64,000 bases of DNA from an uncultured Oxalobacteraceae bacterium (GTDB lineage: Bacteria; Pseudomonadota; Gammaproteobacteria; Burkholderiales; Burkholderiaceae_D): contig CAITOF010000068.1 of assembly GCA_903893945.1 (NCBI GenBank), positions 1 to 64,000 of the forward strand, written 5' to 3'. This document shows positions 23,298 to 34,482 of this stretch, one piece after another. Under the pieces are notes generated by a model. It did not search any database and was not told the DNA's origin. It saw only the letters and a program-made list of their open reading frames with translations. Within the stretch, counting starts at the first letter, position 1; every line of letters starts with the position of its first letter. The position numbers and the translations under genes were made by a program.

Positions 23298-24674
23298 TCA
23301 GGACAGCCGTGTCACGTTGGAATCCGCATAATCATCGTCATCCAGTAATTGCGCCGGCAAACTCTTAGTCGGTATCACGCCCAGCTTCCTGACCTGTTCG
23401 GCCTGGCGTATCAGGTTGCCACGACCGGTGCTCAGTTTCGCTTTGGCATCATCAAATGACTTCTGGGTCTGCCCCAGTTTTTTACCGATATCTTCCAGAT
23501 CGTCCACAAATCCGACAAATTTGTCGTATAACTTCGCGCACTGCTGGGCAATTTCCTGGGCATTCCGGTTTTGCTGCTCCGAACGCCAGATGTAAGCTAT
23601 CGTGCGCAAATTCGCCAGCAAGGTACTGGGACTGACCAACAGCACATTCTTGGCCAGTGCATCGTTGAACAGACTGGCATCGTGACTGAAGGCCAGCATG
23701 AATGCAGGTTCCACGGCGATGAACAGCATCACAAAATCCGGCGCATTCAGCCCCGTTAGCGTCTGATAATTTTTTTCAGATAAACCGCGGATGTGTGACC
23801 GAACTGACATCAGGTGCTGCTTGAGACTTTCTTCGCGTTCCGTATCCGTGTCTGCGCTAACGTAGCGTTCATACGCCACCAGCGACATTTTGGCGTCCAC
23901 CACCATGTGGCGTCCTTCTGGCAGATGGATGATCACGTCGGGACGGTATTGCCCACCCTCTTCCCGGTCAAAACTGTTTTGCACCTGGTATTCTTCACCT
24001 TTGCGCAGGCCAGACGATTCCAGCACCTTTTCCAGCACCATCTCGCCCCAGATACCCTGGGTCTTGTTGCTTCCTTTCAGCGCGTGCGTAAGATTGATGG
24101 CATCTTCACTTATCTTTCCGTTCAACGCAGCCAACCGTTCAATTTCATTTTTCAGCGTCAGCCGCTCTTTTGAATCTTTATCGTAGGTATCGGCAACCTG
24201 TGTCTGAAACTGGGCAATTTTTTCCTGCAGAGGCAACAGAATGCCGCCCAGATTCAGCTGATTCTGTTCAGTGAATTTTTTGGATTTTTCTTCCAGAATC
24301 TGGTTGGCCAGCAGTTGAAACTGCTGGCCGAATTCGCTGCGGGCCGCCTCCAGGAGAGCAATTTTTTCATTGGCCTGCAAACGATCAGACTCAAGGCGCG
24401 TTGACAGTTCGGCGATGCGAGCCTGCTGGTTCGCCAGTTCGGTCTGTTGATCGTCACACCGTGATTTCAGGGCATTGGACTGCAGCAGCCACTGTTCAGC
24501 GATATTCACCTGCGCCGTGAGCCGTTCCTTTAACGAGACAATGTCGGTGGACGCCTGCCGCTCTGCTACCGACAAACGCTGGCTGAATTGGGCGCTCAGG
24601 ACGACCCACGCCGCCAGCCCGCCGACCACCAGCCCGATGCCCAACCCGACCACCAGCAATCCGCTCAATTCCAT
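23298..24674 (-). CDS. rmuC: DNA recombination protein RmuC
   Basis: Membrane-anchored RmuC of about 458 residues, linked to limiting inversions and handling DNA ends. An N-terminal membrane anchor (MELSGLLVVGLGIGLVVGGL) is followed by a coiled coil (about 30-190) and the nuclease-like RmuC domain (GNKTQGIWGEMVLEKVLESSG-type region; EYQVQNSFDREEGGQYRPDVIIHLPEGRHMVVDAKMSL). I start at ATG 24674 because AAAAGGATT lies just upstream and the earlier in-frame ATG adds non-conserved sequence. It is convergent with folE, only nine bases apart. Confidence 0.92.
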   Translation of the reverse strand: MELSGLLVVGLGIGLVVGGLAAWVVLSAQFSQRLSVAERQASTDIVSLKERLTAQVNIAEQWLLQSNALKSRCDDQQTELANQQARIAELSTRLESDRLQANEKIALLEAARSEFGQQFQLLANQILEEKSKKFTEQNQLNLGGILLPLQEKIAQFQTQVADTYDKDSKERLTLKNEIERLAALNGKISEDAINLTHALKGSNKTQGIWGEMVLEKVLESSGLRKGEEYQVQNSFDREEGGQYRPDVIIHLPEGRHMVVDAKMSLVAYERYVSADTDTEREESLKQHLMSVRSHIRGLSEKNYQTLTGLNAPDFVMLFIAVEPAFMLAFSHDASLFNDALAKNVLLVSPSTLLANLRTIAYIWRSEQQNRNAQEIAQQCAKLYDKFVGFVDDLEDIGKKLGQTQKSFDDAKAKLSTGRGNLIRQAEQVRKLGVIPTKSLPAQLLDDDDYADSNVTRLS

Positions 24675-25183
24675 TGGTTTTAATCCTTTTAAAAAATCAG
24701 CCAACCATTCAGGCTTGTGCACGGAATAATAACATTTCCGTATGCAAGCGCTAAGGCGCTGTGCCTGCCCGCAGCGCATCTGTCACAATAAAGTCCTTTT
24801 CAGGCACAAATTCAGAGCTGGGCAGCCCACTGTCCGGTTAAACATTATCAGGGCATTAATGTCCCATTTTTGCCTGGTCAAGGACGAATTACAACGTCTA
24901 ACCAGTGTCGGCAAATAACAGCGCCTATTTTTTCTCACCGCACATTTTCTGCAGCAGCCCAACCCCGGTAACGATACGTGTTGTGTGTATAAAAAAGCAA
25001 TGTTATTATACGGTCGAACAGAAGTGGCAGTTGACAGGGAGTGCCTTTGTCTCACATTCTGCCGTCCCCCAAAGTGACATTTAATCACCTTGGGTGAAAT
25101 AGCCCGGCACCATGATGCGCACCGTGAACGATCAACTTCGCCTTACCTTCTGCAATACCGTTAACGCTTTAATAGAGAATTAA
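24675..25183. other. Intergenic region of about 509 bases without a recognised gene
   Basis: After rmuC is started at 24674, no protein here has recognisable similarity; the open frames on the minus strand are Cys/Arg-rich and lack codon bias. An A/T-rich patch (about 24988-25013) could hold promoters for the small gene at 25184, but I see no convincing -35/-10 pair. No RNA gene was recognised. Confidence 0.5.
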
Positions 25184-25558
25184 ATGCTCAGATTTCAATT
25201 TCAATCGACTGCCGCAAACCAACCGTACAAGCCCTGTTCGCCCCAACCCACAATCAACCCGGGAAACGCGGGGCAAACCACCGCATTGAACCCGCCCAAT
25301 CTGACAAAAAATAGCCCGCCGGATGCCAACCTGCTCGCTAAAACGGCAACAACAATGTGCAAAATGATGGGGTCGCCCATGACGCGCGATGCGTTGGCTC
25401 TCATAGCGGCCGTTATGTTAATTGTCGGTATTTTCTTGTGTGCAAGCGGAGCCGGAGGTCCGCTTGGCGCTTTGCTTATAGGACTCAGCCTGGGCCTGTT
25501 TCTCGGTACGCCCATCCTGACTGGGCTAGCCAGTACGTATAACCGGGCTGCCGCTTAG
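25184..25558 (+). CDS. Small hypothetical protein with a membrane hairpin
   Basis: I do not recognise this 124-residue protein. Residues 1-55 are rich in Pro, Asn, Gln and Thr (low complexity, with two Cys), and residues about 68-115 hold two hydrophobic, glycine-rich segments (ALALIAAVMLIVGIFLCASG and GALLIGLSLGLFLGTPILTG) that could form a membrane hairpin. A poor AGAG ribosome site precedes the ATG. Four 14-bp tandem repeats follow 12 bases after the stop. This architecture is also seen in some secreted or membrane-targeted effectors, but there is no direct evidence for that. Confidence 0.5.
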   Translation: MLRFQFQSTAANQPYKPCSPQPTINPGNAGQTTALNPPNLTKNSPPDANLLAKTATTMCKMMGSPMTRDALALIAAVMLIVGIFLCASGAGGPLGALLIGLSLGLFLGTPILTGLASTYNRAAA

Positions 25559-25569
25559 TTGTACTCAAG

Positions 25570-25625
25570 TTCGCTTACTGAAATTCGCTTATTGAAATTC
25601 GCTTACTGAAATTCACTTACTGACC
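25570..25625. repeat. 14-bp tandem repeat, four copies
   Basis: TTCGCTTACTGAAA is present at 25570-25583 and 25598-25611, with a one-base variant at 25584-25597 (TTCGCTTATTGAAA) and a degenerate fourth copy at 25612-25625. It lies between a small hypothetical gene and moaA. Confidence 0.9.
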
Positions 25626-25665
25626 CAGGATTTCTGAACTTCGGTCCTGGTCATTGCATAAAAAT

Positions 25666-25686
25666 ACAGGTGATCTGAACACCTGT
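25666..25686. repeat. Inverted repeat upstream of moaA
   Basis: ACAGGTG (25666-25672) and CACCTGT (25680-25686) form a perfect 7-bp arm pair around ATCTGAA, 37 bases before the preferred moaA start. It may be an operator or a small leader hairpin. It is too short for a molybdenum-cofactor riboswitch. Confidence 0.4.
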
Positions 25687-25722
25687 TAAAATATTACTTT
25701 GATGCACTTTCAAAGTACGCCA

Positions 25723-26835
25723 ATGACAAGCCGATTTATTCCTATCCATCCGCAAAACGACAGCCCTTTACTGTCGTTGCGTTCTGATATCCACACGCCC
25801 GCCCGTGGAATTTTGATGGATAGACTGCAACGTCCCTTGCGTGATTTGCGTATTTCGGTCACGGACCGCTGCAATTTTCGTTGCGTGTATTGCATGCCCA
25901 GTGCCGTGTTCGATCAGAACTACCCCTATCTCCCGCACAAAGACCTGCTCACTTTTGAAGAAATCACCCGTCTGGCAAGACTGCTGGTGGCCCACGGTGT
26001 GACCAAAATCAGGCTCACCGGTGGCGAGCCACTTTTACGAAAAAACCTGGACCGTCTGGTTGGCATGTTGCGCCAGATCGATACGCCCGATGGCACGCCA
26101 CTTGATCTAACGTTAACCACCAACGGCGCCCTTTTAGCGCAAAAAGCACAGCAGCTTAAAGACGCCGGTCTCAATCGCGTGACCGTTTCACTGGATGCGC
26201 TGGATGACGCCGTATTCAAGAAAATGAACGATGTCGATTTTTCCGTATCCGAGGTCTTGAATGGAATCGACGTGGCGCACCAAATCGGACTGGGCCCCAT
26301 TAAAATCAACATGGTCGTAAAAGCCGGCATGAATGAACATCAGATTATCCCGATGGCACGGCACTTTAAAACATCACCCCACATTTTACGATTTATCGAA
26401 TACATGGACGTCGGCGATTCCAATGGATGGCAGATGGATGACGTCATTTCATCACAACAGATTATTCACCAGATCAGCCAGTCATCGCCTGACATGCAAC
26501 TGGTAGCACTTGAGCCCAATTACCGTAGCGAGACGGCACAACGCTGGAGATACCGGGACGGGGGCGGCGAAGTGGGCGTCATTTCCAGCGTCACACAATC
26601 GTTTTGCAGGGACTGTACACGTTTGCGCCTTTCGACAGAGGGAAAACTATATACCTGCCTGTTCGCCGGCCACGGCCACGAAATTCGCGCCTTGTTACGA
26701 GGTAATGCGGACGATGCCGACATTTCCAACGCACTGGCCTATGTCTGGCAGATGCGCGGTGATCGTTATTCCGAATTGCGTGGCCAGCAAAACAGTCCGA
26801 CAAAAAAAGTGGAAATGTCATACATCGGCGGATGA
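25723..26835 (+). CDS. moaA: GTP 3',8-cyclase MoaA
   Basis: Radical-SAM enzyme of the first step of molybdenum cofactor synthesis; converts GTP to 3',8-cyclo-GTP with MoaC. The N-terminal SAM cluster is [15 protein letters not shown], the second cluster is [21 protein letters not shown], and the C-terminal GG is present (SYIGG). The start is uncertain: ATG at 25702, 25723 or 25816 are all possible and none has a strong ribosome site; 25723 gives a usual length. moaC is not in view. It heads moaA-mobA-moeA. Confidence 0.95.
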
Positions 26836-30589: not shown

Positions 30590-32038
30590 TCAATTTACAG
30601 GAGTGGGTCTTAACGGAACAAATTGTGAGGAATCGCCCCTGCGTACCAGTACAACGGCGATTTTCTTGGGATCCAATTTGGCGCTGAGTGCATAAAACTG
30701 CTTCGCATCCCTGATTTCATTGTTGTTTAACTGGGTGATCAGATCGCCTGGTTGCAAGCCGGCCCGCGCGGCACTGCCATCCACGTTGTCGACAAGGACT
30801 CCGCCGGCAACTTTAAGTTCGCGTTTTTGATCATCCGTCAAATCCGTCACGGATAAGCCGAGCAGATTCTTTTCAGGTTCCGGCGATTTCTCGTTGGCCT
30901 TGCCGGCTTTATTGTCCTGGTCCATCTCAGCAGTGACCAGGCTGACTGTATGGGTTTTACCTTTGTTCCACACCGTCAGTGTTGATTTGGTACCCGGTTT
31001 GGTGTTGCCCACCAGGCGACTGAGTTCATTCCACTTCGTCACTGGCTGCCCATTAAATTCAAGCACAATATCACCTGCCACCATGCCGGCCTTTTCTGCG
31101 GGTGAGCCCGGTTCAACCAGAGAGATAAACGCGCCCTGACCTTTTGCCAAACCAAAAGATTCAGCGACATCCTTGGGTACTTCAGACAGTCTGACGCCAA
31201 TACGGCTGCGACTGACCTTGCCAGATGCCCTTAACTGCTCCACAACCGCCATCGCTTCGTCTATGGGAACCGCAAACGAGATTCCCATGTACCCGCCAGA
31301 ACGGCTGACGATCTGTGAATTAATCCCGATCACTTCACCATTCATGTTTAACAACGGCCCGCCAGAATTGCCGGGATTGACAGCCGCATCGGTCTGGATC
31401 AAAGGCAGAAATTCGCCGGTATCACGCGCCTTCGACGACACAATACCTGCAGATACGGAATTATCCAGTCCAAACGGCGATCCGATAGCAATGACCCATT
31501 GACCGGCTTTAATCTTGTCTGAATCGCCAATCGGCAGCCAGGGCAATTTTGTCGCCTCAATTTTTACCACTGCCACATCGGTACGTTTGTCCAGACCGAT
31601 CACCTTTGCCTTGAATTCACGCTTGTCAGTCAGGTTCACATACACTTCATCAGCACCATCCACCACATGCGCATTGGTTAATACATAACCGTCCTGGGAA
31701 ATAATAAAGCCGGATCCGATACCACGCGGCACTTCCTCCTCATTGCCCTGAGGCGAAGGCCGGCGTTTTTTGGGAACCTGGTTCGGCAACTGGGGAACCG
31801 GGCCACCGAAAAAGCGTCTGAAGAATTCCTGCATTTCTTCGTCGCCCGGTCCGGACTGGTTTACGGAAACTTTTTCAGTCGTACGGATGTTGACCACGGC
31901 GGGGCTGGCCTTTTCCGCCAGCTCCGTGAAATCAAACGCAGGTACGGCGGCCACAGCAGGCGTGGCCAGCATAAAACCTGACACAGGCACAAGGAATGTG
32001 AGCGCAGAGGCTAAATAAACAGAAACGATTTTTTTCAT
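30590..32038 (-). CDS. degP: Periplasmic serine endoprotease DegP/MucD
   Basis: Periplasmic heat-shock protease/chaperone of 482 residues. A signal peptide (MKKIVSVYLASALTFLVPVSGF, cleaved near AVAA) supports start at ATG 32038 rather than the longer upstream ATG. The trypsin-like domain has His in VLTNAHVVDG, Asp in KRTDVAVVKI and Ser in NPGNSGGPLLN. Two PDZ domains follow (about residues 275-370 and 395-478). It is the last gene of the sigma-E operon and degrades misfolded envelope proteins. About 145 bases of gap separate it from the rseB remnant. Confidence 0.95.
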   Translation of the reverse strand: MKKIVSVYLASALTFLVPVSGFMLATPAVAAVPAFDFTELAEKASPAVVNIRTTEKVSVNQSGPGDEEMQEFFRRFFGGPVPQLPNQVPKKRRPSPQGNEEEVPRGIGSGFIISQDGYVLTNAHVVDGADEVYVNLTDKREFKAKVIGLDKRTDVAVVKIEATKLPWLPIGDSDKIKAGQWVIAIGSPFGLDNSVSAGIVSSKARDTGEFLPLIQTDAAVNPGNSGGPLLNMNGEVIGINSQIVSRSGGYMGISFAVPIDEAMAVVEQLRASGKVSRSRIGVRLSEVPKDVAESFGLAKGQGAFISLVEPGSPAEKAGMVAGDIVLEFNGQPVTKWNELSRLVGNTKPGTKSTLTVWNKGKTHTVSLVTAEMDQDNKAGKANEKSPEPEKNLLGLSVTDLTDDQKRELKVAGGVLVDNVDGSAARAGLQPGDLITQLNNNEIRDAKQFYALSAKLDPKKIAVVLVRRGDSSQFVPLRPTPVN

Positions 32039-32182
32039 AATTAAACCATCTTCAGAAAATGTTAAACAAAAATCATAATCGCACCAGACATCATAAACAG
32101 CTTCAACAGCAACATCAATCACACAGCACTGCATTCAACCGACCCGGGCATACTGACGCAAGGGCTATCTTATTCAAAGAAG

Positions 32183-32332
32183 TCATTTCGGTTTGTATTC
32201 AATTGAATCAGAAAGTAATTTTACAGTGGCCAGCGGCACTTCCCCTACCAGGGTGATCCAGAAGTCGCCATACTGAAACGCGGACAGCGCCGTTGCTCCC
32301 TGCTGCACAATACGGGGGCGACGAATACTGGT
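32183..32332 (-). pseudogene. rseB: Out-of-frame-free 3' remnant of rseB behind an amber codon
   Basis: Reading straight on in the rseB frame past the TAG at 32333 gives 49 further codons to a TGA at 32185-32183. These encode RRPRIVQQGATALSAFQYGD and WITLVGEVPLATVKLLSDSI, the normal C-terminal end of RseB. With it the protein would be about 326 residues, the usual length. There is no frameshift, only a stop. Confidence 0.85.
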
Positions 32333-33163
32333 CTACGGTTCAATAAAAACCGAAATGGTGGCCAGACTGTCTGAAAATACCAGTTGAACAACGTCTTGCC
32401 ACTCATTAACCGTCTTCGCCGGGAGCGAATCACCGCCGCCGTGCAATGGCCAGCGAACTTCCCTGATTTTTTTGAATCCGGCTGGCAGCACCTTCACTCC
32501 CCAGCCCGATTCGGTGGACACAGCGACTGTGTCATGGACGGTTTTCCAGCCCGAAACATCCGCATAATGTGTTTTTAAACTGGCTTCATCAACCGGACCC
32601 AGAGTCAGCGACGTGAACGCAACCTGCTCCAGGATCAGATTGTTGACACCGGTGGTTTGGGCCAGCACCAGCAGATTCGATGGTAGTGCCGCACATAGAC
32701 GATAGCCCAGGCGATACTGATCCCTGGGCAGTATGACGATCATCTGGCAGTTGACGCCGGCTACCCGCACCGTCTGTGCCAGTTTAAGCTGGTAGTGGTC
32801 ACCCAAATTCGCATCATTAAAAGCCAGCAGTGCAGGAAACATGTCCTGCACCTGACGCTTTTCGGAACGAAGCGTCTTTATATCGGGTTGATAATTCACC
32901 ACATCGTCGTTATGCCGGATGTATTCACGTCGACGGCCGTCCAGCGTTTCCACCTTTTCCAGTTCATCGCCCGAGGCATACCGGTGCAGAATAAGCGACG
33001 CAGACAGTTGCCCATCGCGCTGCAGGACGAAGGTTCCGGCATAATTTTCTTTTCTCGAGGCAGCCTGCATCTTTTGCAATAAAAGCTGAACGTCCCCTGA
33101 GTCATCGGCATACACCGAGGCCATCGAACCGAAAAAAAGTAAAAGTAAAAGAAAAAATCGCAT
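32333..33163 (-). CDS. rseB: Sigma-E regulatory protein RseB/MucB, C-terminally truncated
   Basis: Periplasmic sensor that shields RseA and responds to lipid or LPS ligands; 276 residues as read. The signal peptide ends near VYADD. The lipoprotein-like domain (MQAASRKENYAGTFVLQRDGQ, LGYRLC) and most of the C-terminal domain are intact. Translation stops at a TAG (32335-32333) right after ISVFIEP, where homologues continue for about 50 more residues that are still encoded downstream in the same frame. The lost part belongs to the RseA-contacting C-terminal domain, so control may be altered. Its ATG overlaps the rseA stop by one base. Confidence 0.85.
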   Translation of the reverse strand: MRFFLLLLLFFGSMASVYADDSGDVQLLLQKMQAASRKENYAGTFVLQRDGQLSASLILHRYASGDELEKVETLDGRRREYIRHNDDVVNYQPDIKTLRSEKRQVQDMFPALLAFNDANLGDHYQLKLAQTVRVAGVNCQMIVILPRDQYRLGYRLCAALPSNLLVLAQTTGVNNLILEQVAFTSLTLGPVDEASLKTHYADVSGWKTVHDTVAVSTESGWGVKVLPAGFKKIREVRWPLHGGGDSLPAKTVNEWQDVVQLVFSDSLATISVFIEP

Positions 33164-33786
33164 TACCTGTCCGGTTCCTGGATGATAGGATGGGTTTGAT
33201 ATTCCACCGCACTATACATTGATTTTGAATAGCGCTGATGGGCTGCCAGATAATCATCAATGTCCGGGTCCCTCAACATCTCGGGCGGGGTGGCAGGCCG
33301 CTGCAACGGCGCAGAGATCACGTGATCGGCTGACGCTGACGAGGCCATCGTTGCACCGGTCTGCATGCCTTGGGCGGCTGACGCCAGCAGGTTACTTGAA
33401 AATGGGCGTCGTGATTGGGTAGCGTCATTACCGGCAAATTCCGGCATCATGACCATGACCAGGGCCGCTATACACGCGGCCGCATAAGCCATTTTCCGAC
33501 TGAAAAAAGTCGGCACTCTGGCACCCGGTTGAATAAATACGGGCTCGGATGCCAACTTCGCCCGCAGAGCGGGTGCGAAATTGTCGCTCAGCGTCATTGA
33601 CAGATCGTCTGAATTAATCAGGTCACCAATCTGGTGGTACAAGAGCCAATCCTGGCGGGCCGTTTCGGTTTGCAATTGCTGAAGCACCCGATCCAGTTCA
33701 TTGAACTGAACTTCCCCGTCAACAAAAGCTGAAATTTGTTCTTTTAATGGATTATTCGGCTGTATTTCAGCGCTGTTATCAATCAT
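33163..33786 (-). CDS. rseA: Anti-sigma-E factor RseA
   Basis: Inner-membrane anti-sigma factor of 207 residues. The cytoplasmic N-terminal domain (LKEQISAFVDGEVQFNELDRVL, about 14-90) binds RpoE. A single membrane helix (MAYAAACIAALVMVMMPEF, about 103-121) follows, then a periplasmic domain that RseB should bind and DegS would cut. The domain layout fits RseA/MucA. It shares one base with the rseB start (TAATG). AGGGAAAAT precedes the ATG. Confidence 0.93.
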   Translation of the reverse strand: MIDNSAEIQPNNPLKEQISAFVDGEVQFNELDRVLQQLQTETARQDWLLYHQIGDLINSDDLSMTLSDNFAPALRAKLASEPVFIQPGARVPTFFSRKMAYAAACIAALVMVMMPEFAGNDATQSRRPFSSNLLASAAQGMQTGATMASSASADHVISAPLQRPATPPEMLRDPDIDDYLAAHQRYSKSMYSAVEYQTHPIIQEPDR

Positions 33787-33832: not shown

Positions 33833-34441
33833 TCACCACCGTTTGTCTGTCGACGTGCCCAGCAGCGGTCGAATTTTAATTGCAATAGCCTCCCGTGCCC
33901 GAAAAATCCGGCTTCGAACAGTACCAATCGGGCATTCCATCATTTCAGCAATCTCTTCATAACTCAACCCTTCAATTTCACGCAGTGAAATGGCGATACG
34001 CAATTCATCCGGGAGCTGCTCCATGGCACTGTTGACCGTTTCCGCCAATTGTTTTGAGGCCAACACTGATTCAGGCGTACTGAATTCGGATTCCCCTTCT
34101 GATGCATGGCCCGTATAGGCCTGGTTGTCATCGGTGCTGCTTTCGGCAATATTTTCAGCCTTCTTTTTCTGTATCACCAGCTGATTTTTCGCATTATTGA
34201 CGCCGATGCGGTAAAGCCAGGTATAGAACGCAGATTCACCCCGGAAATTGGGCAAGGCCCGGTACGCTTTAATAAATGTTTCCTGAACGACATCTTCGGC
34301 TTCGGCATGATCTTTCACAAAGTAAAGGACCAGACGCATCAATTTTCGCTGGTATTTAAGTACCAATAACTCAAAAGCTCGCTTGTCTCCATTCAGCACA
34401 CAGTCAACCAGCACCTGGTCCGCATCACGTTCTGTTGCCAC
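33833..34441 (-). CDS. rpoE: RNA polymerase sigma factor RpoE (sigma-E/AlgU)
   Basis: ECF sigma factor of envelope stress, about 202 residues. Region 2 (FELLVLKYQRKLMRLV, then DVVQETFIKAYRALPNFRGESAFYTWLYRIGVNNAKN) and region 4 (MEQLPDELRIAISLREIEGLSYEEIAEMMECPIGTVRSRIFRAREAI) are intact. I prefer the GTG at 34441 because AGGGGATGCGGT lies just upstream and it gives the usual N-terminus (ATERDADQVLVDC). It begins the rpoE-rseA-rseB-degP operon, and a sigma-E-type promoter lies 42 bases upstream. Confidence 0.95.
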   Translation of the reverse strand: MATERDADQVLVDCVLNGDKRAFELLVLKYQRKLMRLVLYFVKDHAEAEDVVQETFIKAYRALPNFRGESAFYTWLYRIGVNNAKNQLVIQKKKAENIAESSTDDNQAYTGHASEGESEFSTPESVLASKQLAETVNSAMEQLPDELRIAISLREIEGLSYEEIAEMMECPIGTVRSRIFRAREAIAIKIRPLLGTSTDKRW

Positions 34442-34482
34442 ACCGCATCCCCTTGTTTCCTTGCAACATGTCCGGGACAAAA

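Follow-up and report, generated by a model that had tools for sequence, protein, structure and literature searches.

An in-frame amber codon interrupts rseB in the sigma-E operon of an uncultured Oxalobacteraceae bacterium

The rseB gene of this uncultured Oxalobacteraceae bacterium ends at a TAG codon beyond which the same frame continues with family-like sequence, raising the question of whether the codon truncates the protein, is read through, or is an error of the draft genome. The window, that is, the whole 64,000-nucleotide stretch of DNA analysed here, lies on contig C68 of an assembly with 125 contigs (3.65 Mb, 90.83% complete, 1.24% contaminated). The database genus of this genome includes Solimicrobium silvestre and Sapientia aquatica, and the NCBI taxonomy places Solimicrobium in Oxalobacteraceae, Betaproteobacteria. 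As argued below, a recent, lineage-specific nonsense mutation has probably cut rseB short, at codon 277 of its 326. The features of the locus are collected in Table 1.

Table 1 Features of the rpoE-rseA-rseB-mucD locus in window coordinates
Feature	Position	Strand	Evidence and remarks
rpoE (sigma-E), intact	33833..34480	minus	TIGR02939 266 bits (cut-off 236)
rseA, intact anti-sigma factor	33163..33786	minus	Pfam RseA_N E 1e-10; congener alignment; C-terminal YLAAH motif
rseB, ORF ending at TAG	32333..33163	minus	276 codons; Pfam MucB_RseB, then MucB_RseB_C (first half)
In-frame amber codon TAG	32333..32335	minus	After Glu-Pro codons; next base A; variable loop column among relatives
rseB frame continuation	32183..32332	minus	49 sense codons and TGA; second half of C-terminal domain; Pfam MucB_RseB_C 59-97/97
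mucD/degP-type protease, intact	30590..32038	minus	TIGR02037 498 bits; order as in S. silvestre

The reading frame opens with an ATG (33163-33161, minus strand), meets the TAG at 32335-32333 directly after ...ISVFIEP, and runs on through 49 sense codons to a TGA at 32185-32183. The codon sum is thus 276 + 1 + 49 = 326, with the TAG as codon 277. The initial annotation had described the same stop, a family-typical continuation of 49 codons and a protein of 326 residues in the absence of the stop; the coordinates and the codon count agree, the length equals that of S. silvestre RseB, and the profile matches bear out the character of the tail. Upstream of the TAG (the head), the frame matches Pfam MucB_RseB (PF03888; E 2e-48, positions 3-174 of 178) and also covers positions 3-51 of 97 of MucB_RseB_C (PF17188). 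The 49-residue tail by itself corresponds to positions 59-97 of the latter domain (E 7.1e-8, 32.9 bits against a cut-off of 30.1), so that the continuation is not due to chance. The RseB C-terminal domain is therefore not contained in one open frame: its halves lie on either side of the TAG, each significant alone. Mean codon scores are 0.24 for the tail and 0.20 for the head. When S. silvestre RseB was used as the query, the match in the window's own assembly displayed one internal TAG. The codon is a real feature of the sequence. A frameshift in place of a stop was rejected, as frame and length fit S. silvestre RseB exactly. Translation might restart at a GTG that lies nine codons into the tail and yield 41 residues; this was likewise rejected, because a product without a signal peptide could not complement in the periplasm.

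The gene sits where RseB/MucB family members are found, after rpoE and rseA; the two coding regions overlap at TAATG, where rseA stops and rseB starts. Downstream follow mucD, a small glutaredoxin-like gene, rnhB and an RNA methyltransferase gene, in an order identical to that of S. silvestre. RseP, the second protease of the pathway, is present in the genome (354 bits). In family, fold and place within the rpoE-rseA-rseB-mucD operon, the gene is the same as those for E. coli RseB (2p4b/2v42/3m4w) and P. aeruginosa MucB (6in8/6in9/6jau); unlike in these, the frame here is cut within the C-terminal domain. Two side observations concern the annotation of the window. The longest mucD frame (30590-32134) opens at 32134, and comparison with S. 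silvestre suggests the ATG at 32038 as the true start. Between rmuC (23298-24779) and moaA (25699-26835) lies a 919-base gap (24780-25698) without a well-scoring ORF.

If the TAG were a natural C-terminus of RseB, relatives would be expected to end there too, a point the initial annotation had singled out for checking. An alignment of 29 RseB loci, three of them from congeners, was used here; a scan of genome contigs retrieved no relatives in its first pass and 20 loci in a second pass run with an alignment. All 29 aligned relatives continue past the site, by which a natural terminus was rejected, and every one of them fills the stop column with a residue (M, V, K, A, G, T, S, E, F, Y, D, I or L). 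Such variety is as in a surface loop, and with no stop in the column among the 29 relatives, the stop is not conserved there. S. silvestre RseB, with 58% identity to the head, has methionine at the site, and Sapientia aquatica RseB (57% identity to the head) has valine; neither contains an internal stop. Another genome of the genus (81% complete) gave no rseB match.

Across the family, a search with S. silvestre RseB matched 178 of 392 genomes, and among the 150 matches listed an internal stop occurred in the row of this genome only (one TAG). About 28 matching genomes lie beyond those listed; seven of them, together with one listed genome, were examined (two matches each). Eight stops interrupt the main match in G128, and a piece of the G295 gene contains one TAA; rseB is therefore broken in other genomes as well. 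The match in a third genome (G102) was cut by a contig end. In G128, a genome of 1.7 Mb, an open rpoE stands beside rseB and mucD in many broken frames (G128:C9:27800-33000, locus L114), a picture of operon decay. In G295 and G350 (loci L115 and L116), rseB lies in several frames on one contig, which may represent frameshifts or real lesions, and rseA and mucD are open as far as seen. Several stops, frameshifts or absent middle portions mark these three genes, which stand beside rpoE, whereas the gene studied here is interrupted by one codon only.

To gauge what a truncation would remove, we refer to a structural model of the read-through RseB (mean pLDDT 82, built with 16 sequences), the best fold matches of which, according to Foldseek, are RseB/MucB structures. 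In this model, strand 269-276 ends at the stop, and strands 284-288, 291-298, 301-307 and 321-323 as well as helix 311-318 lie beyond it. RseB is described as a negative regulator that binds RseA (PMC6737893), and in the reported MucA-MucB structure the MucA alpha-I helix binds primarily to the MucB C-terminal domain (PMC7400510). Because four strands and a helix of this C-terminal, RseA-binding domain would be missing, the truncated RseB is probably inactive, and loss of its function appears likely. Partial function could nevertheless persist, as the LolA-like N-terminal domain is whole in the truncated protein.

Whether the codon is decoded as a stop can be judged from the rest of the genome. 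The window and 20 further stretches, 427,313 bases in all, contain 222 long ORFs, of which 106 end with TGA, 84 with TAA and 32 with TAG; release factor RF1 is present (prfA, 522 bits). Rfam searches found 36 tRNA genes, of which 35 were named by ARAGORN; the remaining one (C25:9-62) is cut by a contig end and received no ARAGORN call, and its loop TTGGTAA, with anticodon GGT, assigns it to Thr by eye. None of the 36 carries a CTA anticodon reading UAG in this assembly of about 91% completeness, and tRNAs for Trp, Ile and Ala were also absent among them, from which it follows that the tRNA set is incomplete. TAG is a working stop in this genome, and amber reassignment was rejected on the combined grounds of stop usage, RF1 and tRNAs. 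The same three observations speak against the suppression by readthrough that the initial annotation had suggested, and the amber-suppressor tRNA it had proposed looking for did not appear among the tRNA genes found.

We also scanned for further broken genes, defined as stops with coding-like sequence on both sides and no other ORF over the downstream part. From 1129 stops in 427 kb (about 12% of the genome), 18 were kept, the rseB TAG included. Of the 17 besides it, seven are followed by short tails without a Pfam match at E 0.1, and ten lead into longer frames that resemble the next gene (by inspection only). An earlier scan by codon score, with 43 candidates, had missed the rseB TAG, the short tail falling below its threshold. 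In the roughly 12% sampled, the genome shows no sign of a general load of errors or of decay.

How long the codon may have been in place was approached through the tail and through RseA. Relative to three congeners, the tail of this RseB has 59/51/45% identity and the head 61/56/55%; between congeners, the corresponding values are 63/51/49% and 68/56/55%, the tail being slightly lower there too, so that no clear speeding up of tail evolution is seen in these comparisons. Of the tail columns, 22 are conserved in 20 or more of the 29 relatives, and this protein keeps 14 of these (relatives range from 9/23 to 21/21). Under neutrality, divergence is roughly bounded at about 0.10-0.16 substitutions per site; as only kept sites enter this figure, it leans towards youth and gives a weak estimate of a young lesion.

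Genomes lacking rseB offer a second comparison. The RseB domain PF03888 was absent from all 20 genomes tested among the 214 without a family match (this genome served as positive control), so that rseB loss is not strange in the family, and RpoE scored above cut-off in 11 of 12 such genomes. Eleven rpoE neighbourhoods could be drawn from these 12, the rpoE of G009 lying at a contig end, and none of them contained RseB. Nine show the order rpoE-rseA-mucD; of the remaining two, one stops at a contig end (L136) and the other has a more distant, rpoE-like sigma factor and mucD with no clear RseA (L140). Three genera (g11, g24 and g28) each mix genomes with and without an rseB match. We compared the RseA C-termini of these rseB-less loci (L130-L140) with those of rseB-bearing loci (L002-L030 and L083-L100). 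The motif Y[LVIMF]xAH, which was picked after viewing congeners and counted in loci that are related to each other, is present C-terminally in RseA in 43 of 46 rseB-bearing loci and in 0 of 11 rseB-less ones. When the duplicates L008/L084 and L018/L086 are dropped, 41 of 44 distinct rseB-bearing loci have it; L095 yielded no RseA, and close variants of the motif occur in L028, L093 and L096, the three loci without it. When RseA was searched against the PDB, no periplasmic chain of MucA or RseA came up. Loss of rseB in this family thus appears to go together with loss of the RseA C-terminal YxxAH motif. RseA of the present genome keeps the motif (YLAAH), so that it does not resemble a settled rseB-less lineage; this suggests that the stop is young, erroneous or leaky.

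The main rival to a recent nonsense allele is an erroneous base. A base-call or assembly error, or a base from a minority strain, could have entered the draft sequence while the organism's rseB is whole; we consider this unlikely, yet it deserves to be taken seriously. The fragmented, incomplete and slightly contaminated assembly would accommodate it, the tail of rseB and RseA look fully maintained, and this genome alone has an internal stop among the 150 family matches listed. No other such stop was recognised in the 427 kb sampled, however, which argues against an assembly generally full of such errors, and internal stops are present in the rseB of G128 and G295 as well. At the other extreme, the loss might be old and adapted, the lineage no longer needing RseB, like many of its relatives. 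The frequent absence of rseB from family genomes (more than half lack a match), the missing PF03888 in those tested, and the rpoE-rseA-mucD loci that retain RpoE without it make such an outcome conceivable. We nonetheless give it very little credence, for the RseA motif that is absent from all 11 rseB-less loci compared is kept here and the rseB tail has not decayed.

It is also improbable, in our assessment, that some full-length RseB is made by readthrough, with a suppressor tRNA, or a near-cognate tRNA at a slow stop, decoding the amber codon. The loop that holds the TAG varies so much among relatives that nearly every amino acid inserted there should be acceptable, and RseA keeps its RseB-type tail. 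The chain end may matter as well: in E. coli, Glu-Pro before a stop leads to high levels of SsrA tagging, which is indicative of slow termination (PMC7246954, citing Hayes 2002), and C-terminal Pro-Pro is reported to interfere with termination (PMC3834316). The base after the TAG is A and not T, which is the base reported to lower readthrough (PMC11126739). Against this stand, besides the stop usage, RF1 and the tRNA set, the report from E. coli that TAG is read through less than TGA (PMC11126739), the report from M. pneumoniae that Glu-Pro-stop occurs without a fall in expression (PMC7246954), and the absence of any stop at the site in the 29 relatives, which gives no sign of conservation. 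SsrA tagging in this genome is at most a possibility; no tmRNA over cut-off was found in the incomplete assembly. Seven matches to RF00023 were weak and stayed below cut-off, and five or more of these coincide with called tRNA genes; RF01850 had no match, that control search being above cut-off in 0 of 14 genomes. A special form of readthrough would make the amber codon a tunable leak, with slow termination at Glu-Pro-stop and small, condition-dependent readthrough of the tolerant loop. Were this true, the amount of full-length RseB, and hence the setting of sigma-E, would depend on translational fidelity, and the retention of both the tail and the RseA motif would be explained; we regard it as highly improbable.

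A recent nonsense mutation, which the initial annotation had named among its readings, is the best supported of these, because the tail is still family-like and RseA keeps the motif that accompanies rseB; the erroneous base, also raised there, retains the lesser probability given above. If the nonsense mutation is genuine, any RseB made would end after Glu-Pro and would be without the C-terminal elements listed above, four strands and one helix. Such a protein would fold wrongly, be degraded or fail to bind RseA; the restraint on DegS-type cleavage of RseA would then be weaker and basal sigma-E activity would rise modestly, while RseA and RseP, the remainder of the pathway, would still work. 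Since RseB is a negative regulator, sigma-E should then be somewhat more active. The lesion itself is ordinary, a further natural disruption of a negative regulator that is not essential. It would nevertheless make a fair natural experiment, since the break is clean, the RseA partner looks unchanged, and many family genomes without rseB lack the RseA motif; with rseB and the RseA tail going together, the order of loss becomes testable.

A natural inactivation in the same gene family is reported from late P. aeruginosa isolates of long infection, in which mucB carries a frameshift (PMC8743555). That case differs in being a one-base insertion in a pathogen in which mucA had changed too, whereas a nonsense codon is found here. 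Our literature search turned up neither this stop nor, for the genus, any naturally occurring nonsense allele of rseB, and viral contigs searched for the site gave no matches. A search of phage DNA returned one short match to the upstream stretch on the rpoE-rseA side, covering 5% of the query, in an unannotated 1.9-kb Salmonella phage record.
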